A stretch of DNA of 40,313 nucleotides from positions 1 through 40,313 of the IMG/VR virus record IMGVR_UViG_3300036919_000009; one strand, given 5' to 3'. This document shows, piece after piece, positions 626-40,313 of this stretch (positions within the stretch are counted from its first letter, which is position 1; each line of letters opens with the position of its first letter). Made by a program: the position numbers and the translations under genes. Origin of the DNA: a virus. The notes beneath the pieces were generated by a model. That model made no database searches and was not told the DNA's origin. It saw nothing but the letters and a program-made list of their open reading frames with translations.

Positions 626-2592
626 TGTTGGACCCATGGCACAGACTCTCGGCGATTGACGCCGCGGACGAGCTCCGGCGAGCCTGCCAGCAGGCGTGGA
701 CCGACAATGCCCCGCGTCGCGGGCGCGCGCTGGAGTTCTCTTCGCTCTTCGAGGGGTGCCAGCTCAGCTCGTTCGTGCCGTCGGGCTACAACTACGGCAT
801 CTCCAACGTCTTCAACAACGAGGGCGGGCGAGTCATCCGGCACAAATGCCGAAGCGTCGTGAAGGCCGCTCACGCGCTGCTGTGGGGCAACGACGACCCG
901 CTGCCGATGGTGCGCAGCGTGGGCGGAGACTGGTCGACTCAGATGCGCGCCGTTTGGAACAACCGATTCCTGGATGCCGAGTACGAGCTCCCGCAGGGAC
1001 GGTTCGACGATACCCACGACATGCAGCGCCACGCCGGACTCGTCGCCATGGCCGCCACGGGCAGCGCCGCCATCTTCGAGCTACCGGGCTACGGCAAGGT
1101 GGAGTCGAGATTCAACGACACGCTCACGATGCAGCTCGAGACGAGCGGCCCGAACGGCACCATCCTCGGTTGCATCGGGACCGACTATTACGACCCGTGG
1201 GAACTGCTCGACGACGACCGCTACAAGCATGCGTGGGACTCTATCAAGGCCAACGCGATGCCGATGCGCGCCGTCGGTACCGGTGGTTTCGACCAGCAGC
1301 AGAGCGAGCGAGCCGAGCGCATGGTGGTGCCCGTGCACTTCGGCTACCGCGCGCGCAACCGCGGCAAGGACGGCAGGTGCCTGTGGGTGCTGCGCGACGG
1401 GACGCCGCTGGTCAAAATGCAAGAGTACGGCGAGGACGAGCTGCCGTGCGCGTTCTGGCACTTCGAGCGCGAGATGGCCGGCGACTGGGGTACCCCGCTC
1501 ACGCTCTACATCTACGAGCTGTGCCGTCGACAGAACGAACTGACGGCGGAGACTGTCAAGCGGCAGCGCAACATGCCGCAGGCCATCGTCCAGGGCACGG
1601 CCAAGATGCGGGAGCGCATCAAGGGCAAGATCGGATCGATGATCTGGGTCGACTCCGACATGAAAGACGACGACGTACGAGTCGACTGGCCGCCCACCTA
1701 CAGCGATAGCGCCATGGCTTTCGCTGCCCAGCTGAGCGAGTGGGCCGACCAAGATTCGATGGTCGACCAGGCCCATCAGGGCGGTCCGCAGCGGCTCGCG
1801 TCGAGCGGAAAGCACGAGCAGTTGCGCGCCAGCTACTTCTCCGAGGCGTTCGCTCCCGAGTCACGGCGCATCACCCACTTCCGCACCGTCGCGCTCGGAA
1901 AGCGCAAGCTCAGGGCGCTGCGGGCCATGCTGGACGAGGACCAGGACATCTCTCGACTGTGGGAGAAGGGTTCGCTCAAATTCAACATCGACGGGAGCGA
2001 CCTCGAACTCGACGAGGACCGATTCGTGCTTCGCTTCGACGCGGTCAGCGAAGAGAAGAACTCGCTCCAGACGCTCCTCGAACGCGCCGAGCGGTGGGTC
2101 GAGGAAGGCAAGGGCAGCGTCGCGGATCTGATGTGGATGTATCAGACGGCGGACACCGAGAGCCTCTCAGACCAGGCCACGCGCGACAAGCAGTGGCTCG
2201 AAGAGCAGCTCGAGAAGTGGCTCCACGCGCCCGACGACCAGCTGCTCGAAGAAGGCTTCTACCAGAGCCCTCGCAAGTGGCTGATGGATCTGGAGGGCAT
2301 GGCTCGGCGCGTGTCGGGCGAGATGAATCTGGCGGAGTCCCGCGGGGCGCCACCGGAGCGGCTGGAGTTCTTCGAGATCTTCCTCGAAGAGCTGGCCATT
2401 TTGATTGACCAGGAGAAGGCGCAGGCGGTCACGTCGATCAGCGCTACTGCTGACGCGGGCGGCGTCTTCCCTGGGCTTGAAGGAGGAGCCAATGGCGGAG
2501 CAAGCAGCGGAGGAGGCGGAGTCGCCCCAGGAAACCCCGGAGACGTCGGAGCAGTCGGAGCAGGAGGCCCCGGGCCAGGCCCAGGCGTCTGA
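625..2592 (+). CDS. portal protein (head-tail connector)
   Basis: This 655-aa protein fits the size of podovirus portals, which form the dodecameric ring at the capsid vertex through which DNA enters and leaves. The assignment rests on length, a mixed alpha/beta composition, a long acidic helical region around residues 430-600, and its place in the portal, scaffold, terminase, capsid order. The start is the ATG at 625, overlapping the previous stop. The last ~34 residues (GANGGASSGG..., Gly/Pro-rich, low complexity) are encoded by the 101 bases shared with the next gene in another frame, so this tail looks like a by-product of the overlap. I have not verified portal-specific motifs, so the call is strong on context and moderate on sequence. 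Confidence 0.72.
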   Translation: MLDPWHRLSAIDAADELRRACQQAWTDNAPRRGRALEFSSLFEGCQLSSFVPSGYNYGISNVFNNEGGRVIRHKCRSVVKAAHALLWGNDDPLPMVRSVGGDWSTQMRAVWNNRFLDAEYELPQGRFDDTHDMQRHAGLVAMAATGSAAIFELPGYGKVESRFNDTLTMQLETSGPNGTILGCIGTDYYDPWELLDDDRYKHAWDSIKANAMPMRAVGTGGFDQQQSERAERMVVPVHFGYRARNRGKDGRCLWVLRDGTPLVKMQEYGEDELPCAFWHFEREMAGDWGTPLTLYIYELCRRQNELTAETVKRQRNMPQAIVQGTAKMRERIKGKIGSMIWVDSDMKDDDVRVDWPPTYSDSAMAFAAQLSEWADQDSMVDQAHQGGPQRLASSGKHEQLRASYFSEAFAPESRRITHFRTVALGKRKLRALRAMLDEDQDISRLWEKGSLKFNIDGSDLELDEDRFVLRFDAVSEEKNSLQTLLERAERWVEEGKGSVADLMWMYQTADTESLSDQATRDKQWLEEQLEKWLHAPDDQLLEEGFYQSPRKWLMDLEGMARRVSGEMNLAESRGAPPERLEFFEIFLEELAILIDQEKAQAVTSISATADAGGVFPGLEGGANGGASSGGGGVAPGNPGDVGAVGAGGPGPGPGV

Positions 2593-3562
2593 GATCCCGA
2601 CGGACCCGAAGGAGAGAAACGACTACTGGATGAAACAGGCCCTCGGAAAGGGCAAAGAGTCCAGCGATGACGGCGACGCAGACGACGACGATCCGGCCGC
2701 CGACGATGATGAGGATGAGGACGACGACGACGACCTGATTCCCGACGGCAAGTCGGCGCTGGATGCCGAGGCCGAGAAGAGGCTGGCTGCGCTCGATGCG
2801 TCGCTCGAAAAGCTCAGCAAGATCAAGAACGGCAAGCAGCTCCGCAAGGCCATCGCGAAGCACGCGCGCGACGTCAAGGCCCACCAGGATGAGGTGGCCA
2901 AGTCACAGGGAAGCGCGGCCGAGCAGGCCAAGATGGTCGCCGATGCGCGCAAAGACCTCGGGCCCATCGCCGAGACGATTGCTGCCTCAACAAAAGGCGA
3001 CTGGCGTGGAGTGCGCAGGGCGCTGGACAAGATGTTCGAGCACGCGGGCGGCTGGCAGGGCGCCGCCAAGGAGCTGTGGAACGTATCCAAGGACGGCGCC
3101 GCGACGGCCGACCTGCGCCACCAGGTGGCCGAGCTCGAGAAGCGCCTCGAAGCCAAGGAGGGCAAGGGCAAGGACGATGAGCCCGGTGACGCGCCCGAAG
3201 GCACGATGAAGCGCTCCTCCTTCGACCGCAAGCTGAAGAATCACAAGCTCGCCGACGTGGACGAGGACGGAGACCTGCTTGGCGAGGCGTGGGACCGGTT
3301 CGAGAAGTCGTGGGACGACGATCTCGAGACCTACGGCATGACCCCGAAGGAGGCCGCAGACGCGGTCCTGAAGCGCGAGCAGAGGCGCGCGGCCAAGCTC
3401 ACCGGCAAGCGAGCCAAGCCCGATGCCCCTGCGAAGGGGGACGGAGACGAGCCCGCGAAGCCGCTGAGCAAGATGACGCGCGACGAGCGCAACGACTACT
3501 TCATGAAGCGCGCGATCCGCATGAGCGAGGCAGAGAAGCGCGAGAACGCGAGGCGCTCGTGA
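2492..3562 (+). CDS. acidic scaffold-like head assembly protein
   Basis: The 356-aa protein starts at the ATG at 2492 behind a strong AAGGAGGAG site, inside the end of the portal gene. It is highly charged and repetitive: an E/Q-rich start, a poly-Asp stretch around residues 64-82, predicted coiled-coil helices at about 95-160 and 215-240, and a basic C-terminus. This profile and its place just before the capsid assembly genes match scaffolding proteins, which line the inside of the procapsid and leave before DNA packaging. The motif ERNDY(W/F)MK occurs twice, at residues 41-48 and 332-339, near both ends. In several phages the scaffold C-terminal helix binds the coat protein, so the repeated motif may be a docking element (inference). 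Confidence 0.68.
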   Translation: MAEQAAEEAESPQETPETSEQSEQEAPGQAQASEIPTDPKERNDYWMKQALGKGKESSDDGDADDDDPAADDDEDEDDDDDLIPDGKSALDAEAEKRLAALDASLEKLSKIKNGKQLRKAIAKHARDVKAHQDEVAKSQGSAAEQAKMVADARKDLGPIAETIAASTKGDWRGVRRALDKMFEHAGGWQGAAKELWNVSKDGAATADLRHQVAELEKRLEAKEGKGKDDEPGDAPEGTMKRSSFDRKLKNHKLADVDEDGDLLGEAWDRFEKSWDDDLETYGMTPKEAADAVLKREQRRAAKLTGKRAKPDAPAKGDGDEPAKPLSKMTRDERNDYFMKRAIRMSEAEKRENARRS

Positions 3563-4440
3563 GCCTCCCTCGACTACGCCCGCTGCGCGACTACGCGCTG
3601 ATCCGCCCTCGCCCAGAGCTGCGAGACGAGATGAGCGCGATCAAGGTCACGCTGGACGACACGGCCCGCAAGGCAGCGTCGGCCATCTCGTGCCAACCCG
3701 GGTTCGCTCCCGCGCACCATCTCACCGAGCAGCTGCAGCAGACTGACTGGACCAGCGACCTCGAAGCGCTCACGTTCGGCGAAGTGGTCGCCGTGGGGCC
3801 GGGGCGCGCCGCAATCGTGGACGACCGTCCAGAAATCGAGCCCGGCAACATCGTCGCATTCAAGCGTCGGCGCATCGCTCACGACCTGGCACGGCACGAT
3901 TCGGACGGGACCCGCAACGACCTGATGGTACACGAGCACGGCATCGTGCTCCGGTACGACGACGGCCCCGGGTCGCTGGGCACGCCGCTCAGCAACTGGG
4001 TCATGACGAAGCGCGACCCCGAGGCGTTCCGCCGCATCATCGGGCGACACAGCGAGCTGACGGACCGCGAACTCGGCGACGGCGTCACGACAAAGACGCA
4101 TCAGGTCGCCACCAATCCCGGGCTCGCTGGCACGCGATGGGAGACCAAGCCCGACACCGTTGCGACCCGAGGAGGCATCGTGTTCGAGCGCGTCGTCGCG
4201 GCCGGGCCAGGCCGATTCGTTCGGACCATCGTTCCACACACGTCCTGGTACGGACCGGGAACACACCCAATGCCCGCGGTCGTGGGGGCCAAGCGCCGGA
4301 CGTGGGAGCCAGTCGCGGTCAACGTGGGTCAGATGATCGGGCTCTACCGCATGTCGAGCAGTATCAAGTTCCGACAGCACGGCGTCCACTACTCGCTCAC
4401 CGAATGGGACGAGTGCATCTGCGCGGTGGAGGAGGATTGA
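3559..4440 (+). CDS. tandem GroES-like (Cpn10) co-chaperonin
   Basis: The 293-aa protein starts at the GTG at 3559, overlapping the scaffold stop (GTGA). Two GroES-like units are visible. Unit 1 (about 5-135) has LRPLRDYALIRPR at 6-18 matching the GroES start, GEVVAVGPGR at 74-83, a PGN-IVAF turn at 95-101 and HEHGIVLRYDD at 125-135. Unit 2 (about 200-293) has RGGIVF at 204-209, which resembles the GroEL-binding mobile loop, then RVVAAGPGR at 211-219, VNVGQMIGLYR at 254-264 and a YSLTEWDECICAVEED ending very like that of GroES. Phages such as T4 (gp31) encode their own co-chaperonin for capsid folding; two fused copies recall plastid Cpn20. Its place between scaffold and terminase fits a capsid-folding role. 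The family call is by eye. Confidence 0.72.
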   Translation: MSLPRLRPLRDYALIRPRPELRDEMSAIKVTLDDTARKAASAISCQPGFAPAHHLTEQLQQTDWTSDLEALTFGEVVAVGPGRAAIVDDRPEIEPGNIVAFKRRRIAHDLARHDSDGTRNDLMVHEHGIVLRYDDGPGSLGTPLSNWVMTKRDPEAFRRIIGRHSELTDRELGDGVTTKTHQVATNPGLAGTRWETKPDTVATRGGIVFERVVAAGPGRFVRTIVPHTSWYGPGTHPMPAVVGAKRRTWEPVAVNVGQMIGLYRMSSSIKFRQHGVHYSLTEWDECICAVEED

Positions 4441-4949
4441 CCGACGTCGCCGAAACCCTGGAGCGTCTCATCGACGCGTGCGACCAGTACCCGTACCACG
4501 AGCTGGTGGCGTACGCGTGCGGGGTCAGCATTGGCGAGCTCGAGGACTACCTGCGGCGCGGCGCGACCGTGTGCGGTGACTCCGAGGACGACGAGATGCT
4601 CCGGGGCTTCGCGCTCGAATACTCTCGGAAAGACGCCGAGTATGCGCGGCGGTCGTTCCCGACACTGAAGGAGCCGAGTGAGTGGGAGTGGTTCCACAAG
4701 CGGTGGCCCTGCGGCACGCCCCTGAACGTGTCAGGCATCCTCACCAGCGACGCATCGGAGGCGCTCAGTCTGGTCGAGGCGTTCCGCGCGCCGAATGGCG
4801 AGATTGCCGAGGCGCTAGAGCAGGCCGGATGGTTCAGCATCGGGCAGCTCGATAACCCCAGCGAGTCGCTCAAAAAGGCCCTTGCGGCGGCCGGGTGGAG
4901 AAGGGAACAGGATGCTGGACCCGAGCCGCGTCCTGCGCCAAGCGGTTAA
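4437..4949 (+). CDS. small HTH-like protein before the large terminase
   Basis: The likely start is the TTG at 4437, overlapping the previous stop (TTGA) just behind GGAGGAGGA; a downstream GTG near 4507 is an alternative. The 170-aa product has a possible helix-turn-helix near the N-terminus (ELVAYACGVSIGELEDYLRRG, residues about 21-41), then charged helices. It ends 38 bases inside the terminase gene. A DNA-binding protein immediately upstream of the large terminase is the classic position for a small terminase subunit, which recognises packaging sites. A second candidate for that job lies at 29754, so the role is unresolved. Confidence 0.6.
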   Translation: MTDVAETLERLIDACDQYPYHELVAYACGVSIGELEDYLRRGATVCGDSEDDEMLRGFALEYSRKDAEYARRSFPTLKEPSEWEWFHKRWPCGTPLNVSGILTSDASEALSLVEAFRAPNGEIAEALEQAGWFSIGQLDNPSESLKKALAAAGWRREQDAGPEPRPAPSG

Positions 4950-6327
4950 CTCGGGCTCCGACCTCGTAGCGTACCTCACGCCGAAACAGCGTGAGATCGA
5001 GCTGGACCCGTCGCACCTCAGAGCAGTCTGGGGTGGCAGGCAGTGGGGAAAGACGACGTGGACCGGCGTTGCTCACACGCGTGGCGCGCTCCCCGGAGTC
5101 ACGAATCTCGCCATCGCGCCGACCATCACGAAGGCTCGCGACCTCCTGTTTCACCAGCTGGAGCAGCTGCGCGACGAGAAGGGGCTCGATGTCAGGCTGC
5201 TGAAGGGCGACTTCCGCGCCGAGTTCCCGAACGGCGGAGTGGTGCAGTGCCTCGGGCTGTCGACGCTTGCGGAGGCCGAGAAGATTCGCGGGTTCGTCCC
5301 CGCCTTCGCCACGATCGAGGAGTGCGGCACGTACCGCGACCAGGTGCTCGAATACGCAATCGACGGCTGTCTAGCTCCAGCGACGATGCGCTACTGGCGT
5401 CGTGGCGGCCGCGGGATCGCGAACATCGGGACGCCGTCGAAGGCGATGGGCACCTACTGGCACGACGTCTGCCTCGGCAAAACCGGGGCGACGTCGCACC
5501 ACGCCACCGTGTTCGACAACCCGTTCATTCCGGACGCTCGCGCATACCTCGAGCAGGTGATCGCGAACCACGCGGCGAAGGGGTGGACGTGGGACACGCC
5601 GGTTTTCCGGCGAGAGTACCTCGGCCAGTTCTGCCCTGACTCTCAAGAGATGCCCTATGGGTCGTGGGACGGCGTGCTCCTGCCGCAGGCGATGGCCCCT
5701 CGCGAGGGCTACACAGTGATGGGCATCGACTTCGGTCAGACCGCTGACAACTCATGGGTCGTGGACCGAATGACGACCGAGACGGTGCTCGACGAGGTGC
5801 GCCGCAAGATGGTCACGCTCAACACGATTCACCGAATCCACGCCTCGAAGAAAAACAAGCTCGGCACCGATCAGGTAGCGGCGCACACGAAGATGCTCGC
5901 GTCCGTCTTTGGGGTGAACGCCATCGTGGGCGACGGACACGGGCAGGGCGCCCAGAGCATCAAGGACATGCGCCGTCAATTCGGTGTCCCCATCGCCCCG
6001 GCTCTGAAGAACGGAAAGAAGGAGCACCGCATCTGGACCACGGATTCGTTGTTGGCCAGCGGCACCATGAAGGTCTACGAGGAGGCCAAGCCGTGGGGCG
6101 ACGAGGCGCGCGTCGTGCAGTGGAACGAGGACCGCACCGACCACCACGACCGCTACCCGTCTCACGCGTGCGACGGCGGGCTCTACTCGCTCGAGCGTCT
6201 GATGGCGCGGCAGAGCGAAGAGGACGCCCCGCCGGTCCCGGGCACGCCGGAGTGGGACGAGGCAGAGGCGAAGGCGCGCTGGCGCGAACGGATGGATTCG
6301 TTCCGCGAACAGGGCTTGCTGGACTGA
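4912..6327 (+). CDS. terL: terminase large subunit (DNA packaging ATPase and nuclease)
   Basis: The 471-aa protein starts at the ATG at 4912 behind GGAGAAGGG. The ATPase half shows a Walker A GGRQWGKTT at residues 41-49 and a Walker B with catalytic acid FATIEE at 132-137. The nuclease half shows the expected acidic residues of the RNase H-like fold: GIDFG (D273), GDGHG (D341) and HACDGG (D421). The motor docks on the portal, translocates DNA into the procapsid and cuts it. The length is normal for the family. It follows the head assembly genes and precedes the capsid gene. Confidence 0.93.
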   Translation: MLDPSRVLRQAVNSGSDLVAYLTPKQREIELDPSHLRAVWGGRQWGKTTWTGVAHTRGALPGVTNLAIAPTITKARDLLFHQLEQLRDEKGLDVRLLKGDFRAEFPNGGVVQCLGLSTLAEAEKIRGFVPAFATIEECGTYRDQVLEYAIDGCLAPATMRYWRRGGRGIANIGTPSKAMGTYWHDVCLGKTGATSHHATVFDNPFIPDARAYLEQVIANHAAKGWTWDTPVFRREYLGQFCPDSQEMPYGSWDGVLLPQAMAPREGYTVMGIDFGQTADNSWVVDRMTTETVLDEVRRKMVTLNTIHRIHASKKNKLGTDQVAAHTKMLASVFGVNAIVGDGHGQGAQSIKDMRRQFGVPIAPALKNGKKEHRIWTTDSLLASGTMKVYEEAKPWGDEARVVQWNEDRTDHHDRYPSHACDGGLYSLERLMARQSEEDAPPVPGTPEWDEAEAKARWRERMDSFREQGLLD

Positions 6328-6328
6328 G

Positions 6329-6523
6329 CTACTCGCCGATCAGTTCGGCGTAGTCCTCGCCCAGGCCCGCGGCCCGGCATGTCATCGGCCCGGCTTCCCG
6401 CAGCAGAGCGAGCCGCTGCGACCCGAACTCCTTGTCCAGCTCCGCCTCGAACGCGCGAAGCCTTTTTTCGTGGTTTGCCTGTAATTCTCGCATCTTACGA
6501 CGCAGCTCCAGAGGACTGACCAT
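6329..6523 (-). CDS. small charged helical ORF on the opposite strand of the late operon
   Basis: This minus-strand frame could encode 64 aa from the ATG at 6523. The first 40 residues (LELRRKMRELQANHEKRLRA...) are strongly helical, with K/R/E heptad-like spacing, which is more protein-like than a random antisense frame. It sits in the 395-base gap between terminase and capsid genes and ends 1 base after the terminase stop, tail to tail. No good ribosome site is visible. It may be a real small gene or a chance frame; I recognise no family. Confidence 0.4.
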   Translation of the reverse strand: MVSPLELRRKMRELQANHEKRLRAFEAELDKEFGSQRLALLREAGPMTCRAAGLGEDYAELIGE

Positions 6524-6722
6524 GGCGCATCTTGACGCGCCCGACGGGATCTGGCAAGCATCAGGCACGGCGCCAGCCAGCGCCCCCGGCGTCAGGCCGG
6601 CGTCCCGCGAAGGCGGCCAGGGTAGTGAGACCTGGAACCGGCGAAAGCCAGGCAGCTGAAAGTTCCCCAGCGATTGCGGAGCGGTCGAGACGCACACCAG
6701 GTGCGGTTTCCCGAGGCAATCA
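6524..6722 (+). other. intergenic leader before the capsid gene
   Basis: About 200 bases without a convincing plus-strand gene separate the small minus-strand ORF from the capsid start. The stretch is GC-rich with several short inverted elements around 6565-6615 (for example GGCGCCAGCCAGCGCC) that could fold in RNA. A GAGG lies six bases before the capsid ATG. Because the capsid is usually the most expressed late gene, this leader is the natural place for a late promoter recognised by the phage sigma factor, but I see no strong -35/-10 pair. Confidence 0.35.
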
Positions 6723-8054
6723 ATGGGCAATTTCGTCGAAAACTATCTCACCCGGTACGAGCTGGCTCCCGATGAGCTGAACGACGTCGCGCTGAAGGCG
6801 CAGGCGATGATCGCTCTGTACGACCAGGTCAAATCGAAGGGCTCCGAGTCGGTCACGGTCCGATTCCGCCTGCGAGGTCCCCGAGGATTCGCCCCGAACC
6901 TCACCGAGGCGCAGCGCATCTCGGCCGGCGCCCCCAACAGCGACTACCACCGAGCGACGGTCCCCTACGGCAAAATGGAGGGCGAGATCCTCTTCAGCCT
7001 GGAGGAGATCATCAAGTCGGAGTCCGATCCCGAGTACGGTCGAGACTTCCTGGCGAGCAACACCGAGGCGGGTGTCGCCGGCTTCGCTCAGAAGATCGTG
7101 GAGCGGATGAACGCCCCCGCGGGCGGCGCGCAAAACGAGACGACCGTCACCTTCAACTCGGCGGCTGCGAGCCCCCTCCCGGTCTACCACCTCGACTTCT
7201 CCGCCAACCCCTGGGAGCTCGCCGGGCTCACCAACGGCGACCTCGTGCAGGTGAGCGCGAGCGACGGCACCTCCGCCGCGCACGCGACGCTCGCGAACGC
7301 GGGCCGCATCGTGGATCTCGACCTGGACAACGGCTACGCGCAGATCGCGCCCGAAGGCTCCACGACCCCGGGCAACCCGGGCGGCTGGGACGACACCGGC
7401 GCGACCGCCTACTACGTCTACCGCATCGGCGAGATGCACAAGGCGTCGCCGTCGAGCACCATCATCCCGTGGTCGACCTGGAACCCATCGAGCCGTTCGA
7501 CCGCGGACCTCTTCGGCATCGATCGCAGCGTCCACAGCTCGCTGAGTGGCAACCGGCTGCTCTCGACGGATGCCGCCGCCGATGCAGCGCTGACGCGGCG
7601 AGGGCGGGTCCTGGCGGCCAAGATCTTCACCCGCGTTGGAGGCACCGACGTCCAGGTCGGGCCGAAGCGATCCATGGTGGAGAAGAGCCTCGTCGCGCTG
7701 TGCAACCCCGAGGAACTCGAGTCCCTCGAGGACGAAGAGCAGAGCCGGGTCATGTACAAGCCCGAGCGCACCGTCGTGAACGGCTTCGAGGCCATCTTCA
7801 CGCAGACCCAGATGGGCAAGCTCGCGTACCTCCCCGAGCCGACTCAGCGGCGCGGCACGTTCCGCATCGTCAACCCGAGCCAGCTGCACATGGTGTCGAT
7901 CACCGGGCAGCTGATCAACATCCTCTCGCTCGGGATGGGCAAGGGGATGCTCCGGGCCGCGAGTGGCTCGAACGACATGGCCCTGCGGCCCTTCTTCTTC
8001 GGCGCTCACGTCGTCGGCAACCCCGGCGCTCACGCCCAGCACCTGACCACGTAA
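6723..8054 (+). CDS. major capsid protein
   Basis: The 443-aa protein is the best candidate for the coat subunit: correct size, position after the large terminase, and followed by small structural genes. The N-terminal region is helical and charged (ELAPDELNDVALKAQAMIALYDQ), followed by a beta strand region (SVTVRFRLRG) and an extended arm-like segment. A Gly/Ser/Thr-rich section at about 145-235 may be an inserted surface domain. The C-terminal part carries helical and beta segments that would form the core of an HK97-type fold. I did not identify a diagnostic motif, so the call combines context and overall pattern. It starts at the ATG at 6723 after a modest GAGG. Confidence 0.75.
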   Translation: MGNFVENYLTRYELAPDELNDVALKAQAMIALYDQVKSKGSESVTVRFRLRGPRGFAPNLTEAQRISAGAPNSDYHRATVPYGKMEGEILFSLEEIIKSESDPEYGRDFLASNTEAGVAGFAQKIVERMNAPAGGAQNETTVTFNSAAASPLPVYHLDFSANPWELAGLTNGDLVQVSASDGTSAAHATLANAGRIVDLDLDNGYAQIAPEGSTTPGNPGGWDDTGATAYYVYRIGEMHKASPSSTIIPWSTWNPSSRSTADLFGIDRSVHSSLSGNRLLSTDAAADAALTRRGRVLAAKIFTRVGGTDVQVGPKRSMVEKSLVALCNPEELESLEDEEQSRVMYKPERTVVNGFEAIFTQTQMGKLAYLPEPTQRRGTFRIVNPSQLHMVSITGQLINILSLGMGKGMLRAASGSNDMALRPFFFGAHVVGNPGAHAQHLTT

Positions 8055-13938: not shown

Positions 13939-14949
13939 TTGCGGGGGGGCCAAATGGAGACATTCGAGACGATGAAAAAGACCATGATTTTGATGACGTT
14001 GCTGGCCCCGATCGGGGTCGGCTGCGCAGGGGCCGATGGCGAGTGGCAGGACTTCGGCGGGACCGAGCCGGAGCCAGCCGACGACAAACCATTGATGGCA
14101 GATGTCAAGTGGTCGGAGCCGGTTTACAAGCCGACTCTGAGTGACGGCACCGACGTTCCGGAGGAAGCGCTCGCGCCTCTGATGGCCAAGCTGGATGCCG
14201 CCCACGAACTCGGCATCGAGCTGGACGACTATCCGGCACTGGCCAACGCGCTGGAAGACCCCGGCGTTTCGGCGGGTGACGTTCCAGGGCTGGTCTCTGC
14301 CATGGGCATCACGGTTGACAAGCTCCAGCGCCCCTGGGGTTTCGGCTCCGACTCGGCCCAGAACGCATGCCAAGGGACGTGGAGCGGAACGTGTGACATT
14401 CCAGACACCAGGGGATTTGGATTCCGATCGCGTTGCGACGAGCCCAGTCCTCCCGCTGGGTGCAGTTCCGGCGGATACGGGATCCAAGTCGGCGGAGCCA
14501 TCTCCGCGGCGCTGGCCTGGGCCGAGTACTATCTCACCTATCAGACCGACTACTGGAGCGGAGTGTATCTGCCCTGGAACGCTCCCATCGGCAACATGCG
14601 CGTGACCACGAGCACAAGCTGTGGCCCGGGCGGGTGCGCGAATGCTGGTCTATCGCGCGCATCGTACCACTGGTGGAACGCTTTCGACGATCCGCGTAAG
14701 TACTACTTCTGTGAGGTGACCATTTATCGCGGAGCACTGGACTCGATTGCGGATCAGGCCGGAGCCAACCCGTCGCAGCGGTTGCGCTTCGCGCAGAACG
14801 TGACGCGGCACGAGGCTGGGCACTGCTTTGGGCTCGGGCATACCACTGCCGCCGGCACGCTGATGGGTCCCGCGAACTCGAACCACTTCAACTACGTCTT
14901 GGCCCCGACCAGCCAGGAACACGCGCTGATGGAACTGTACGTTCCGTGA
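13939..14949 (+). CDS. metzincin (matrixin-like) zinc metalloprotease lipoprotein
   Basis: The start is taken as the TTG at 13939 because AAAGGTGAT, an excellent ribosome site, ends eight bases before it; ATGs at 13954 and 13972 have no such site. The 336-aa precursor has a lipoprotein signal ending IGVGC (Cys29). The catalytic motif HEAGHCFGLGH (H291, E292, H295, H301) is the exact metzincin HExxHxxGxxH, followed by a Met-turn GTLMGP (M309). About eight further Cys suggest disulfides. A pro-region of ~70 acidic residues precedes the globular part. It would sit on the outer face of a membrane and cleave protein. It lies alone, divergent from the accessory operon and just before the lysis genes, so release, surface remodelling or superinfection exclusion are possible roles. 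Confidence 0.82.
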   Translation: MRGGQMETFETMKKTMILMTLLAPIGVGCAGADGEWQDFGGTEPEPADDKPLMADVKWSEPVYKPTLSDGTDVPEEALAPLMAKLDAAHELGIELDDYPALANALEDPGVSAGDVPGLVSAMGITVDKLQRPWGFGSDSAQNACQGTWSGTCDIPDTRGFGFRSRCDEPSPPAGCSSGGYGIQVGGAISAALAWAEYYLTYQTDYWSGVYLPWNAPIGNMRVTTSTSCGPGGCANAGLSRASYHWWNAFDDPRKYYFCEVTIYRGALDSIADQAGANPSQRLRFAQNVTRHEAGHCFGLGHTTAAGTLMGPANSNHFNYVLAPTSQEHALMELYVP

Positions 14950-15916: not shown

Positions 15917-16074
15917 TCCGTCGCCTCATCTACTGGCTCAGAGACCGACGGTACCGCCGTTTGCGGCGCCGGTACGCGTCGACCATGGCCCGGGACTCGA
16001 AGGCGGCTCAGGATGCGTCTGCCGCCCAGCGTGGCGCTACCCGCATCCACCTTGTAGATCCGCGACGCCGGTAA
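15913..16074 (+). CDS. 53-aa highly basic protein after endolysin
   Basis: The ATG at 15913 overlaps the endolysin stop (ATGA). The product has 16 Arg in 53 residues (MIRRLIYWLRDRRYRRLRRRY...), a cationic amphipathic N-terminus and a polar tail. It overlaps the end of the convergent sigma factor gene by 38 bases. Cationic amphipathic peptides in lysis cassettes can disrupt the outer membrane; whether this one does is not shown. Confidence 0.6.
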   Translation: MIRRLIYWLRDRRYRRLRRRYASTMARDSKAAQDASAAQRGATRIHLVDPRRR

Positions 16075-16702
16075 GGACCGCGCGCGCGCGGAGCTGGCCC
16101 AGAGCCTTCAGCTTGATCTGGCGGATGCGTTCGCGGCTCAGACCGAGCCGGTCGCCGATCTGCGCCAGGTTCTGCCCCTCGAAAAAGAACAGGCGCATCA
16201 CGAGGCGCGTCCTAGCGTCCAGCGTATCGAGCAAGTCACGCGACGCTGCAGCCCGCTGGTCGCTCTGCATTGACTCCTCTGCCGTGGCGGCATGGCTGGA
16301 CAGAAGCGACAGGAGGTTGGACCCGTCGTCTCGGATCGGCTCGTCCAGGCTCGTGGTCGGGCAAGGGAGCCAATCGAGTTCCGCGAGCGGGTCCGCTTTC
16401 ATCCGCAGCTTGTTTTTCTTCCTGGTCTTTTCCTGGACGTGGACCGGGATGCGAATGGTTCTGCCGCGATCTTGGGCCTCTCGGGCGATGTGGTGTCGCA
16501 CCCACCACGAGGCGTAGGTTGAGAACTTCAGGCCGCGCGAGTGGTCGAACTTGCGGGCTGCCACCATGGTGCCCTCGAGGCCGGCGTTGACCAGGTCTTC
16601 GAGTTCGAGTGCCCCGGTGCATGCCCAGGCGAAGCGCTTTGCGATAGAGTAGACGAGCCCGGTGTGCTCGCTGATTCGGATGCCGTTGATCACTTCTGCC
16701 AC
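16037..16702 (-). CDS. sigma-70 family RNA polymerase sigma factor
   Basis: The 221-aa protein starts at the GTG at 16702 behind a perfect GGAGGTGA. Region 2 is clear (LVYSIAKRFAWA at 16-27, ELEDLVNAGLEG at 33-44, FDHSRGLKFSTYASWWVRHHIARE at 52-75), followed by RTIRIPVHV at 81-89. A short variable stretch replaces most of region 3. Region 4 has LDARTRLVMRLFF from 161 and the -35-binding helix LSRERIRQIK at 188-197. It would bind host core RNA polymerase and direct it to phage promoters, probably late ones. It is the last gene of the minus-strand operon starting at 21.4 kb, so it appears after the DNA metabolism genes. Confidence 0.92.
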   Translation of the reverse strand: MAEVINGIRISEHTGLVYSIAKRFAWACTGALELEDLVNAGLEGTMVAARKFDHSRGLKFSTYASWWVRHHIAREAQDRGRTIRIPVHVQEKTRKKNKLRMKADPLAELDWLPCPTTSLDEPIRDDGSNLLSLLSSHAATAEESMQSDQRAAASRDLLDTLDARTRLVMRLFFFEGQNLAQIGDRLGLSRERIRQIKLKALGQLRARAVLTGVADLQGGCG

Positions 16703-19274: not shown

Positions 19275-19555
19275 GCGCACTCCCTTCGCGCGACGGCGAG
19301 ACGGCGGGCAAAGTGCATGTCGGCGTCGGTCCTCGCGATGGCCCTGCGGACGCCATTCATGACAGTGGTGCTGTCGCGCCGCAGCGCGCGTCCGATCTGC
19401 GAGTAGCTCGCGCCGAGCTCTCGGGCCAGCAGCATCACCGCGAAACGAGGCTCGACCAGCTCACCGAATCGCCGATTCTTCAGCACATCCTCTGGCGTCA
19501 CACCCCACTGGTGGCACACCGACAGGATGATTCGTTGCATCTCGCCTTGCGTCAT
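19271..19555 (-). CDS. orphan DnaA domain IV-like DNA-binding protein
   Basis: The 94-aa protein starts at the ATG at 19555, overlapping the previous stop (ATGA). It matches the C-terminal DNA-binding domain of bacterial DnaA: ILSVCHQWGVTPEDVLKNRR at 10-29, EPRFAVMLLARELG at 35-48, SYSQIGRALRRDSTTVMNGVRR at 50-71. RDSTTV (60-65) stands where DnaA has RDHTTV, which reads the DnaA box. No AAA+ domain is present. It may compete for or mimic DnaA sites at host or phage origins, or act as a transcription regulator. Confidence 0.85.
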   Translation of the reverse strand: MTQGEMQRIILSVCHQWGVTPEDVLKNRRFGELVEPRFAVMLLARELGASYSQIGRALRRDSTTVMNGVRRAIARTDADMHFARRLAVARRECA

Positions 19556-21066
19556 ACTTGTTCCTGCATCTCTTCCGGGCAGTAGAGCCCCATCGTTGCC
19601 TTGGGCCAGAGCAGTCGAGCGAGCTTGCTGCCGGCGGTTTTGGTCAGCATGTCCCGTGGGCGCACGGTCCAGTTGCTCGGTTTTCCGTTCCGAGACGGCC
19701 GCAGCAGACCCGCGTCTTTCGCCTCCTGGATCGTGTAGGTGTATGGAGTCGGCTTCGGGTGGCGCTTGTGCTTCCCCTCCCACGTTGCCTTCTCGGTGTC
19801 TGATTCGACGAGCATCAGATACTCGAAGTCCGGGTCACGCTCCGCCAGCGCACGAATGAGATCGGCCGACGCCGATGGCTTGCCCTCGATGAGGTGGAAG
19901 CCGGCGAGCGCGGTGGTCCAGCCAAGGCCGAGCTCGCGGCCCCGGGACAGGATCGTGAAGATGGCCTGTGGCGAGCGGAACTGCGGGTAGAGCTGCCCCT
20001 CGTGGGCCCACTTGGCGATGCTGCGAGCGCTTTCCAGATCCATGGGCTGCAGGTCAGTATCCACCGCTCCGTACTGCGGGTGGCGAACGATGGCGCGCTC
20101 TACCTGCTTCGGTCGATGCGACTCGTACTTGCTTGGATCTGCCGGCTTTGCCGTGTCGTCCACCGGTTCGCCTTCCACCTCCTCAGGCCCGCCTGTCTCC
20201 GACTCTTCTTCGTCGTGGTCTGCCGACATTGCATCCTCCATGGCGAGCGGCTTCTGCTCCTTGCGCTCGAGCAGCGCCTCGACGTCGAGCGGCACGTCGA
20301 GGCGCAGCTTCACGAGTTCGAGCGAGCGTTGCAATTGGTCCCAGTTCTCGGCGAGCGCCTTTCCCATGGCCGGCTTGATGTCCGAGCGCCCGTCGTTCTC
20401 CGGGTCGGTCGAATCTGCCAGGGCTTTGGCAATCCCCTTGATGTCGCCGTACTGCTCGATGAGCCATGCCGCTTTCTTGCCACCGATGCCAGGGATGCCC
20501 GGTACGTCGTCCGTCTTATCGCCGCACAGGGCGAGCAGCAGTTGCATGCTCTCGGGGGCCACTCCGTACTTGGCAAGCACCTCGTCGGGGCCACGCACCT
20601 CACCGTCGCGGCCTCCGACCGGTGGCACGAACATACGCACGTTCTCACCGACCAGACAGGCCAAGTCTTTGTCACTGGCCACGATGCGGATGTCACGGCA
20701 CTCAGGGGCGAGTCGATGCGCCAGCGCGGCGATGACGTCATCTGCCTCGAAGCCCTTGGCGCGCGCCATCTGGAACCCAAGCTTGTCGATGCGATCCATG
20801 AGCCAGCGCTTCTGCGCCTGCTCGGCATCAGTAGGAGGTTCCCTGCTCGACTTGTATTCTGGGTCGATGGCAAGCCGATGCTCGTACGGCGGCGAGTCGA
20901 GGCACAGGATGACGTGGTCGACCGACTCCCGAATACCCTGGAGCTTGCCGATGCAGTCCTGGGCCGCTTCGTCCGGCTTGCCGTCGGGCACGCGCCGGTG
21001 CCAGGCCAGCTTCCACAAGTAGCTCAGGTCCACCAGCGCAATGCTGTCGTGCTCAGTTTGGCTCAC
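19552..21066 (-). CDS. 5'-3' exonuclease (FEN family) fused to a RecT-like annealing domain
   Basis: The 504-aa protein starts at the GTG at 21066 after GAGGTGG, overlapping the upstream stop. Residues ~8-235 form a complete Pol I/T5-type 5' nuclease: D13, CLDSPPYEHR (D57), PEYKSSR at 69-75, FEADDV (E107, D109, D110), SDKDL (D132, D134), GDKTDDVPGIPGIG (D183, D186, D187; helix-hairpin-helix). A ~100-residue acidic linker follows (DHDEEESETGG). Residues ~345-504 resemble RecT: SPQAIFTILSRGRELGLGWTTALAGFHLIEGKPSAS (365-400), TIQEAKDAGLL, RPRDMLTKTAGSKLARLLWP, GLYCPEEM. Exonuclease and annealase are normally separate (Exo/Beta, RecE/RecT). One open frame with no stop links both halves here. Confidence 0.87.
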   Translation of the reverse strand: MSQTEHDSIALVDLSYLWKLAWHRRVPDGKPDEAAQDCIGKLQGIRESVDHVILCLDSPPYEHRLAIDPEYKSSREPPTDAEQAQKRWLMDRIDKLGFQMARAKGFEADDVIAALAHRLAPECRDIRIVASDKDLACLVGENVRMFVPPVGGRDGEVRGPDEVLAKYGVAPESMQLLLALCGDKTDDVPGIPGIGGKKAAWLIEQYGDIKGIAKALADSTDPENDGRSDIKPAMGKALAENWDQLQRSLELVKLRLDVPLDVEALLERKEQKPLAMEDAMSADHDEEESETGGPEEVEGEPVDDTAKPADPSKYESHRPKQVERAIVRHPQYGAVDTDLQPMDLESARSIAKWAHEGQLYPQFRSPQAIFTILSRGRELGLGWTTALAGFHLIEGKPSASADLIRALAERDPDFEYLMLVESDTEKATWEGKHKRHPKPTPYTYTIQEAKDAGLLRPSRNGKPSNWTVRPRDMLTKTAGSKLARLLWPKATMGLYCPEEMQEQV

Positions 21067-21242
21067 GACGCCACCTCGAACAGCCGCACGACCCGCACGC
21101 ATTCTTCCCACGCGAAGCAGACGACGCCGAGCTTCGCCAGCTCGGATGCAACGCGGAGCGCCGTGAGGCGCCCGGTGCACACGATGACGTTGTCCTCGTG
21201 ACGAACGATGCCGCGGTCACGGACTGACTTTGCGAGATTCAC
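21063..21242 (-). CDS. 59-aa hypothetical protein
   Basis: The GTG at 21242 overlaps the preceding stop (GTGA), and its own stop overlaps the next GTG in the same way. The two gene starts share the same upstream GGTGGCGTCGTGA sequence. The product (IVRHEDNVIVCTGRLTALRVASELAKLGVVCFAW) alternates beta and helix, a small alpha/beta protein. Not recognised. It is probably co-translated with the exonuclease-RecT fusion. Confidence 0.62.
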   Translation of the reverse strand: MNLAKSVRDRGIVRHEDNVIVCTGRLTALRVASELAKLGVVCFAWEECVRVVRLFEVAS

Positions 21243-27807: not shown

Positions 27808-28373
27808 TGGCCGACCCGAAGAATCCGTACGACAAGTGGCTGATCGTCGCCGATCTGTCGAGGTATCGGCGCGAGCAGCTGAAAGGCATGTCTCGCGCCT
27901 GGGAGCGCTGTGCCGACGCCTACCGTCCGTTGCTCGAGGAGGCCCGCGCCGAGGTCGAGCGGCTGATGCTGGAGGCTGCCAGCCATGTCGACGCACTGAA
28001 CGCGGCTCTCGCCGAGGTCGAGCGGTTGCGAGTAGATTTGCACGAGGCTGCAGAAAACTGCACGAGAGCATTGAGAGAAGCTTCGATCTGCGCTCGTCGG
28101 CGTTGCGTATGCGAAGACGAGCGCGACGACCTGCGCGCCCGGGTGGAGGAGCTGGAGGGGGCCGACGAAGCTGACCAGGTGGCACGCGCGACGAAGCTGG
28201 CCGACCTCACGGTTGCGTCGCTGAGACTGAGCCATTGCACCCCCGACGAGCGCGCGGTGCTGAGTCTCGCCAAGGTGTGGGAGGCCATCGGGAGCACCAA
28301 GGGATGTGAGGCAGACCGTACCCTGGCAGCGGCCGTGTCGAAGCTGCCTGATGGCTCGGAGGCGGACCGGTGA
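27807..28373 (+). CDS. 188-aa coiled-coil protein
   Basis: The ATG at 27807 overlaps the previous stop. The N-terminal half is a long coiled coil (RYRREQLKGMSRAWERCADAYRPLLEEARAEVERLMLEAA ... ALAEVERLRVDLHEAAENC), followed by a Cys-containing CARRRCVCEDERDDLRARVEELEG and a compact C-terminus. It resembles other coiled-coil proteins of this genome in style rather than sequence. Function unknown. Confidence 0.66.
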   Translation: MADPKNPYDKWLIVADLSRYRREQLKGMSRAWERCADAYRPLLEEARAEVERLMLEAASHVDALNAALAEVERLRVDLHEAAENCTRALREASICARRRCVCEDERDDLRARVEELEGADEADQVARATKLADLTVASLRLSHCTPDERAVLSLAKVWEAIGSTKGCEADRTLAAAVSKLPDGSEADR

Positions 28374-28876
28374 GGGCCGGCGCCACGTTCAGCCCGTGCC
28401 GCACGTTCCGGTACACGCTCTGGCGCATTTGGGACGAGTCGCTGCCCAACGTTTGCTTCTGCGCGTTGAATCCCAGCACCGCCGACGAGACGGTGGACGA
28501 TCCAACCATCCGACGTGAGATTCGGTTCGCCAAGGACTGGGGGTTTGGTTCGCTCGTGAAGGTGAACGCATACGGTTACCGGGCCACCGACCCCAAGATC
28601 ATGAAGCGCGCGCCAGACCCGATTGGCCCCGCCAACGAGCACTTCCTGCTGTGCAAGGCGATGCAGGCTGGAAGGTTCATCGCGTGCTGGGGGACGAACA
28701 TCGACAAGACCCACCAGGCCCGAATCCTGAACGAGCTACGACGGAGCGACGTCGACGTCTGGGCCCTGAAGCTGACCAAGTCCGGCTTCCCCTCCCATCC
28801 GCTCTACCTACCGAAGAACACCGAGCCGTTCATCTGGAAACCGAAACCCGCCATGCGCGAGGAGGCCGACTCGTGA
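28370..28876 (+). CDS. DUF1643-family protein
   Basis: The GTG at 28370 overlaps the previous stop (GTGA). The 168-aa product has the DUF1643 signature: RYTLWRIWDE, VCFCALNPSTADETVDDPTIRRE, FAKDWGFGSLVKVNAYGYRAT, IACWGTNID, and KSGFPSHPLYLPK. The family is common in phages and mobile elements, and its biochemical function is not settled; conserved NPSTA and HPLY motifs suggest an enzyme. The length is normal for the family. Confidence 0.82.
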   Translation: MRAGATFSPCRTFRYTLWRIWDESLPNVCFCALNPSTADETVDDPTIRREIRFAKDWGFGSLVKVNAYGYRATDPKIMKRAPDPIGPANEHFLLCKAMQAGRFIACWGTNIDKTHQARILNELRRSDVDVWALKLTKSGFPSHPLYLPKNTEPFIWKPKPAMREEADS

Positions 28877-29753: not shown

Positions 29754-30257
29754 ATGCTGGCACCCGGGCAAGGTGGTCTTACCGAACTGCTGGCCGAGAT
29801 GCGCGAGGTGCTCGACGGCATCGAGGTGGGCATGTCGGTCCGGTCGGCGTGCCTCCGGGCCCGGGTCAACGCCAGGCGGCTCCAGGCATGGCTCGAGCTC
29901 GCGGCCGATGGCGAGGAGCCCTTCGCGGCCTGGTACGAGGCGCTGGGCGCGCGGAGCGAGGAGGGCCGCTACCAGATCCTGAGTGACCGCAAGGCCATGG
30001 CGGCCCACGACCCGAGGGCGAACGTCGTGGCTCTGGACCGGTGGGGGGAGGAGACCGCGGGGCAGCTGCCAAGGCTCGAGGCCCACGAGAACACGAGGAC
30101 GTGGGGCAGGGCAGCGGCGGTGCGCCGGTTCGAGCGCGCCCGCGCCCACAAGGGTGAGCTGCCTGCCCCGCGCGAGCTGTTCGCAGGCATGGGCAACGTG
30201 ATCGACTTCGCGGCGCTCCCGACCCGGCTGGGCAAGGGGCGCCGAGGGCAGGGCTGA
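29754..30257 (+). CDS. terminase small subunit-like DNA-binding protein
   Basis: The 167-aa protein starts at the ATG at 29754. It has the outline of small terminases: an N-terminal helix-turn-helix (GIEVGMSVRSACLRARVNARRLQAWLELA at about 22-50), a segment PFAAWYEALGARSEEGRYQILSDRKAM with charged helices, and AAHDPRANVVALDRW, which resembles the central region preceding oligomerisation. This pattern is closer to small terminases than that of the 170-aa protein at 4437. It is the first large gene of the late cluster. Confidence is moderate because neither candidate was compared with a database. Confidence 0.6.
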   Translation: MLAPGQGGLTELLAEMREVLDGIEVGMSVRSACLRARVNARRLQAWLELAADGEEPFAAWYEALGARSEEGRYQILSDRKAMAAHDPRANVVALDRWGEETAGQLPRLEAHENTRTWGRAAAVRRFERARAHKGELPAPRELFAGMGNVIDFAALPTRLGKGRRGQG

Positions 30258-39945: not shown

Positions 39946-40313
39946 ATGAGCGCACTGATCAAATACCTTCGAGCTGGCGCTGAAGTGAATGCCAACGGAG
40001 ACTACTCCGACGGCGGCGACGGCGTGACCGACTTCTCTTGGGAGAACGATACCACGCAGGATGCGAAGATTCGCGAGCTGTTCGTCTACGTCGAGGATGC
40101 GCTGAACCCAATGGCGGACGAATACGGCAACCTGGGCTCAGCTCTGGCGAACGGAGTTGAGCTGATTCTGGTAGACGAAACCGGCGCGACCGTGCTCGAC
40201 ATCACAGACGGGCTCCCGATCAAGAGCAATGCGCAGTGGCGGGCGTTGTGTCAGGACGCTGGCTTGCAAAGCTTTGCGGCAGGGTCAAGCAACGAAGTGG
40301 TGTTCGCCCACCT
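39946..40313 (+). CDS. structural-region hypothetical protein, 5' part (continues at position 1)
   Basis: The ATG at 39946 begins a 165-aa protein that crosses the circular join and ends at 257. The 5' part reads MSALIKYLRAGAEVNANGDY ... TDFSWENDTTQDAKIRELFVYVEDALNPMADEYGNLGSALANGVELILVDE. It is acidic and mixed alpha/beta. A GAGG lies six bases upstream. It is probably a small virion component between internal virion proteins and portal. The part after 40186 duplicates the left end of the window. Confidence 0.8.
   Translation, partial: MSALIKYLRAGAEVNANGDYSDGGDGVTDFSWENDTTQDAKIRELFVYVEDALNPMADEYGNLGSALANGVELILVDETGATVLDITDGLPIKSNAQWRALCQDAGLQSFAAGSSNEVVFAH
40187..40313. repeat. 127-bp direct terminal repeat, right copy
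   Basis: Exact copy of positions 1-127. Merging the copies gives a circle of 40186 bases and keeps the gene at the join intact. Confidence 0.97.

Follow-up and report, generated by a model that had tools for sequence, protein, structure and literature searches.

Two GroES-like units in one phage protein encoded near the large terminase gene, and paired Cpn10 genes in uncultured phages

The virus genome analysed here encodes a protein of 293 residues, P0001, that comprises two Cpn10-like domains in one chain, which confirms, with corrections, what a preliminary description of this DNA had proposed. The two GroES-like units are borne out by sequence blocks whose scores exceed those of all 1000 shuffles in each unit. 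The stronger part of the finding is the conserved pair of Cpn10 genes present in uncultured phages, and it appears that phages have evolved chaperone lids in pairs, a form not seen in cultured phages. To our knowledge, tandem Cpn10 co-chaperonins are known only from plastids and apicoplasts, and no report of a tandem phage co-chaperonin was found in the open-access literature, subscription journals being outside the scope of the search.

The P0001 gene and the sequence of its two units

The window, as we call the whole stretch of DNA analysed, is an IMG/VR virus record of 40,313 bases. Since its first and last 127 bases (1-127 and 40187-40313) are identical, forming an exact 127-bp terminal repeat, it represents a complete genome. 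The P0001 gene starts at 3559 with a GTG that overlaps the stop codon (TGA) of the gene upstream, and stops with TGA at 4438-4440. Its GC content at the three codon positions (0.69/0.50/0.84) is the same as in the adjoining genes, and the long antisense ORF opposite it has the mirrored codon-position GC, as a shadow ORF should. The genes concerned are the following:

2492-3562 (+): acidic gene, presumed scaffold from its sequence character (acidic, low-complexity); no profile match
3559-4440 (+): P0001, tandem GroES-like protein, 293 aa; Pfam Cpn10, E 0.01 for the whole protein
4437-4949 (+): 169-aa gene between P0001 and TerL, possibly the small terminase from its position and helix-turn-helix look; no profile match
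4912-6327 (+): large terminase (TerL); PHROG 2 terminase large subunit, E 8.9e-24

P0001 lies inside the head and packaging cluster, as the preliminary description claimed, the large terminase downstream being identified by its PHROG 2 match. The more precise placement between scaffold and terminase stood for the terminase, with the 169-aa gene intervening, while the scaffold owes its name only to an acidic, low-complexity look. The genes upstream of P0001 would be portal-like and scaffold-like and the gene 3' of the terminase capsid-like; profile searches (Pfam, PHROG) gave no match for the presumed portal, scaffold or capsid genes of the window. Elsewhere in the genome, a gene at 29754-30254 (+) has a weak small-terminase match (PHROG 4102, E 0.09) and competes with the 169-aa gene for that role.

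All the motifs quoted in the preliminary description were found in the P0001 ORF. The features of the two units are listed below.

3571-3612 (+): unit 1 first strand, RLRPLRDYALIRPR, residues 5-18; block A 15.3 bits, reached by 0/1000 shuffles
3613-3774 (+): unit 1 mobile-loop position, about 54 residues, read from the sequence; contains SAIKVTL and lacks the GGIVL motif
3775-3807 (+): unit 1 second strand and turn, FGEVVAVGPGR, residues 73-83; Pfam Cpn10 match at 69-103, E 0.0038 on the first half
3823-3963 (+): unit 1 C-terminal strands, DRPEIEPGNIVAFK ... NDLMVHEHGIVLRYDD; blocks C and D, weak, reached by 36/1000 shuffles
3979-4017 (+): unit 2 first strand, candidate 1, GTPLSNWVMTKRD, residues 141-153; block A 4.7 bits, reached by 7/1000 shuffles; helical in the AlphaFold2 model
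4069-4098 (+): unit 2 first strand, candidate 2, ELGDGVTTKT, residues 171-180, with spacing like PLHDRVIVKR; MAFFT alignment A4, AlphaFold2 strand 175-179
4171-4215 (+): unit 2 GGIVF and second strand ERVVAAGPGR, residues 205-219; AlphaFold2 strand with pLDDT about 91, block B
4216-4308 (+): unit 2 enlarged roof-hairpin insertion, about 30 residues, flanked by model strands E85-90 and E111-116; same-site insertions in L160, L156b and L082b
4306-4347 (+): unit 2 EPVAVNVGQMIGLY, residues 250-263; block C, pLDDT about 90
4390-4437 (+): unit 2 C-terminal strand pair, YSLTEWDECICAVEED; block D2 12.7 bits, blocks C and D together reached by 0/1000 shuffles

The library profiles recognise P0001 faintly. 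Pfam Cpn10 (PF00166) gives 16.3-17.7 bits, below its curated cut-off of 21.1, PHROG 3188 (GroES) matches unit 1 weakly (E 0.037) and the NCBIfam GroES models give E 0.04-0.2. No profile reaches its curated cut-off on P0001 and unit 2 alone has no significant match in these libraries, which therefore miss proteins of this kind. In the PDB sequence search, no Cpn20 or Cpn10 chain matches P0001, a protein too diverged for this to decide descent. A GroES profile not chosen by motif, built from eleven phage GroES proteins together with that of E. coli, aligns collinearly with pieces of both halves and gives P0001 16.3 bits, against at most 8.4 for unrelated ORFs among the 13,282 ORFs of the fetched viral loci and the window. 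A profile derived from motif-selected loci, on which P0001 scores 39.5 bits, was set aside as evidence, its motif having come from P0001.

Much of the GroES-profile score of P0001 is supplied by the VVAxGPGR motif. When the motif was held in place and its flanks were shuffled 2000 times, the real HMM score was matched by 3-5 shuffles for unit 1 and by 13-274 for unit 2, a result that is not decisive for unit 2, whose long insertions are penalised. Because the motif dominates the profile scores, we ran a test without it, in which the GroES blocks outside VVAxGPGR were scored with free loop lengths, the motif's own score was subtracted and the result was compared with 1000 motif-preserving shuffles. 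Unit 1 scored 11.2 (shuffle maximum 5.3, 0/1000) and unit 2 scored 13.8 (shuffle maximum 1.8, 0/1000, z 5.0), and 22 real non-Cpn10 proteins carrying VVAxGPGR scored at most -4.6. The blocks occur in the GroES order (first strand, VVAVGPGR, VKVGDxV, C-terminal strand pair) in both units; in unit 1 the first strand (LRPLRDYALIRPR) is strong, in unit 2 the last strands (LTEWDECICAVEE).

Cpn10 genes beside the terminase in other phages

A Cpn10 gene just upstream of TerL recurs among phages, mostly as a single-domain gene. Two P22-like podoviruses, PBR31 and ctn9Y15, encode a single-domain GroES a short distance upstream of TerL, and a motif scan of IMG/VR returned 74 Cpn10 loci, 20 of which have TerL within 3 kb downstream. 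Some of the 74 contain adjoining pairs of Cpn10-like genes, Cpn10a and Cpn10b. With the second gene of the pair as scan query, 79 new loci were obtained. Cpn10a lies directly upstream of Cpn10b in 70 of them, mostly with overlapping start and stop codons; two carry both domains in one ORF, seven are cut by a contig end and none lacks Cpn10a. In each of the 79, TerL is matched no more than 3 kb downstream. Cpn10a-Cpn10b-TerL is an obligatory cluster in one uncultured phage lineage.

The two fused ORFs (L174:3623-4423 and L176:914-1699) score 60/56 bits and about 45-46 bits for their two Cpn10 domains, and they count as one virus because their terminases are identical. Other long ORFs that lacked a separate Cpn10a were considered as fusions and rejected, most being stop-to-stop overhang, so that only L174 and L176 are true ones. 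A search of 50,697 phage records gave no match to Cpn10b, and for the fused protein it gave only single Cpn10s that cover a quarter of it. Co-chaperonins that are paired or fused therefore exist in phages other than the cultured ones. The statement of the preliminary description that phage co-chaperonins have a single domain is true of the cultured phages searched and fails for uncultured ones, in which the proteins of L174 and L176 are clear fusions of a pair.

Direct homologues of P0001 were found neither in IMG/VR nor in GTDB genomes or phage records, a match in a Salinibacter phage being noise antisense to a helix-turn-helix gene. Single-protein scans with the TerL or the capsid protein of the window retrieved no relatives, and none of the 33 loci obtained with a TerL alignment has a Cpn10 nearby. 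The Cpn10a and Cpn10b profiles give 15.0 and 10.7 bits on unit 1 and 3.6 and 3.1 bits on unit 2. In the terminase tree, the TerL of the window falls outside the clade of the Cpn10a-Cpn10b lineage, a joint clade not being rejected (p-AU 0.069), and the tree suggests that the fusion in the window and that in L174 may be of independent origin. P0001 may be a very diverged descendant of the Cpn10a-Cpn10b pair or may represent a second origin.

Several further observations concern these loci. Cpn10b ends in a strongly conserved tail, WQQSAGYDRxGNxxSGxEDW (L156, L082, L117, L142, L114 and L084). TerL matches a pair of adjoining ORFs in 69 of the 79 loci (L171-L249; for example L181:5251-6048 and 6039-6776), divided at a point corresponding to about residue 262-272 of the intact protein in L156, where the ATPase part gives way to the nuclease part, and it is intact in a few related loci, L174 and L176 included. 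Jumbo phages such as CBB (KU574722.1) have two unlinked GroES-like places per genome.

A proposed lid for the host GroEL

We propose that P0001 is a Cpn20-like double-domain co-chaperonin that caps the host GroEL, and we consider this account probable, with moderate confidence. P0001 would be composed of two GroES-like β-barrels arranged head to tail, with a long loop at the mobile position of each and an enlarged roof hairpin in the second. It would be made late, together with the head and packaging proteins, and a lid of about seven Cpn10 domains would be assembled from three to four P0001 chains, or from P0001 mixed with the host GroES as Cpn20 does. This lid would cap the host GroEL, the complete window genome having no Cpn60 (GroEL) gene, and would aid the folding of virus structural or packaging proteins, the clients being late proteins from the gene cluster of P0001 itself. 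Ring formation, GroEL binding and the clients are what we infer, and the folding of the capsid protein by P0001, which the preliminary description suggested, is unproven. The T4 protein gp31 caps GroEL for the folding of gp23 (PMC6318259). We dropped the argument of an enlarged chamber drawn from gp31, which does not carry over because the putative capsid protein of the window (443 aa, about 48 kDa) is not too large and would fit the ordinary GroEL-GroES cage.

Cpn20 is a working two-domain co-chaperonin, which copes with seven-fold symmetry through mixed rings with seven domains in all; concatamers built of six or eight also work (PMC5780408). The same source bears out chloroplast Cpn20 as the best-known architectural parallel, as had been put forward. 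The resemblance of P0001 to the chloroplast and apicoplast Cpn20 (Cpn21), two Cpn10 domains per chain, is architectural: P0001 has no detectable sequence kinship with it beyond the Cpn10 fold and is a phage gene beside a terminase; its loops are longer, and its unit 2 has an enlarged roof hairpin. With T4 gp31 and RB49 CocO it shares the phage-encoded Cpn10 fold, a mobile loop longer than that of GroES and a link to head morphogenesis, but these are single-domain heptamers whereas P0001 has two units; furthermore, gp31 is without roof loops (PMC6318259), in contrast to the larger roof loop of P0001 unit 2. PBR31 and ctn9Y15 resemble it in having a GroES gene shortly upstream of TerL and a genome of about 40 kb, and differ in their one Cpn10 domain with ordinary profile scores. 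A similar arrangement is seen in the Cpn10a-Cpn10b pair and its fused form, in which two different Cpn10 domains are made together or fused directly upstream of TerL and the second domain bears a roof insertion; their Cpn10 scores are much clearer, and they have the conserved C-terminal tail that P0001 lacks.

The mobile-loop position comprises about 54 residues in unit 1 and, by the model, about 25-30 in unit 2, compared with 16 residues in GroES and 22 in gp31 (PMC6318259). At the usual place in the loop, both units are devoid of a GGIVL-type GroEL-binding motif, unit 1 having SAIKVTL instead. The GGIVF noted in unit 2 by the preliminary description is present, but it abuts the second strand rather than occupying the usual mid-loop position. 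A similar short spacing before the second strand is found in the paired-phage relatives (GVVLEKGVVVAVGPGR in L156). Because unit 1 lacks the contact motif and unit 2 has it out of place, binding of GroEL by P0001 is not assured. Long loops also occur in a single Cpn10 (L133:4975-5709, minus strand), which is extended by about 80 residues in the mobile loop and by about 60 in the roof.

The missing or displaced contact motif is compatible with a protein that has kept the GroES fold, no longer works with GroEL and has a structural or assembly role in the head or the packaging machine, for example as a ring at the portal or terminase. The constant position beside TerL across lineages, the big loop and roof insertions of P0001, L133 and Cpn10b, and a weak PHROGs head-closure match of L156b (E 0.014) besides its GroES match point the same way. 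We nevertheless regard this role as unlikely, as the TerL-adjacent Cpn10 of ctn9Y15 and of most other loci is an ordinary GroES by profile, and the fold searches gave no phage head protein with a Cpn10 fold.

Predicted fold of the second unit and wider meaning

AlphaFold2 run on the full-length protein as a single sequence gave an unusable model (pLDDT 30). For unit 2, the input was an alignment with 18 other sequences (viral Cpn10s and unit 1), and the model has a mean pLDDT of 72.6; for most of the residues 71-90 and 111-157, numbered within the half, the value is about 90. With Foldseek, its best PDB match is human mitochondrial Hsp10 (E 1.5e-5), T4 gp31 also matches, and the BFVD search matched viral GroES proteins. 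VIA-align 2 aligns it with Thermus thermophilus Cpn10 (Z 12.5, rmsd 3.4 over 86 residues) and with the GroES of X. oryzae (Z 11.9, rmsd 1.4 over 75 residues), the first unrelated fold appearing at Z 6.7. Unit 2 is thus predicted, in a partly circular manner, to have the GroES β-barrel fold; because the alignment contained Cpn10s, the barrel speaks for compatibility more than it provides independent proof. The preliminary description named a half without the GroES β-barrel as grounds for refutation, and the model of unit 2 from this Cpn10-containing alignment, being such a barrel, does not refute it.

It has also to be considered that only unit 1 is a Cpn10, the second half being unrelated with a chance VVAAGPGR, or that P0001 is one Cpn10 with giant insertions like L133, whose own insertions span 60-80 residues. 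The lack of a library match for unit 2 alone and its indecisive HMM shuffles would agree with this, as would its ambiguous first strand, for which the block test favours residues 141-153 and the AlphaFold2 model uses 175-179. Such a reading appears rather improbable in view of the non-motif blocks of unit 2, which exceed 1000/1000 shuffles, of the presence of two sets of features, unit 1 having its own second-strand motif and downstream blocks, and of the barrel in the unit 2 model.

The fold matches include the tandem-Cpn10 chains of the Chlamydomonas ClpP complex (7ekq, Z 9.4), and CPN20 caps ClpP and represses its activity according to work cited in PMC12282863 and PMC8889267; a P0001 lid that caps and blocks some other ring of the host than GroEL, for example ClpP, in the manner of the chloroplast CPN11/20/23 complex, is however very improbable, 7ekq being matched only through its Cpn10 fold and the gene lying among head and packaging genes, not early anti-host genes.

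Returning to the lid on GroEL, a more general and tentative extension, which we consider possible but doubtful, is that phages evolved two-domain lids at least twice, as obligate Cpn10a-Cpn10b pairs or as fusions. Their differently specialised domains would form an asymmetric ring of alternating domains on the host GroEL, with a chamber dedicated to virion or packaging proteins. In plastids and apicoplasts, the tandem Cpn10 poses the problem of fitting an even number of domains to a seven-fold chaperonin. If the proposal is true, the phage version, together with the always-paired unlike Cpn10 genes beside the terminase, would be a second, independent answer to this symmetry problem and would offer a testable case of a virus remodelling the folding chamber of its host.

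Other genes of the window deserve mention. At 19555-21084 (-), a 5'-3' exonuclease with both Pfam domains is apparently fused to a RecT-like C-terminus (E 9.6e-6), as a recombination pair in one chain. A sigma-70 family factor with regions 2 and 4 (16040-16702, minus strand) suggests phage control of host transcription. The gene at 13939-14949 (+) encodes a putative secreted lipoprotein with a matrixin/reprolysin-like zinc protease motif and weak Pfam matches, and that at 28370-28876 (+) a DUF1643 protein (E 9.8e-39).
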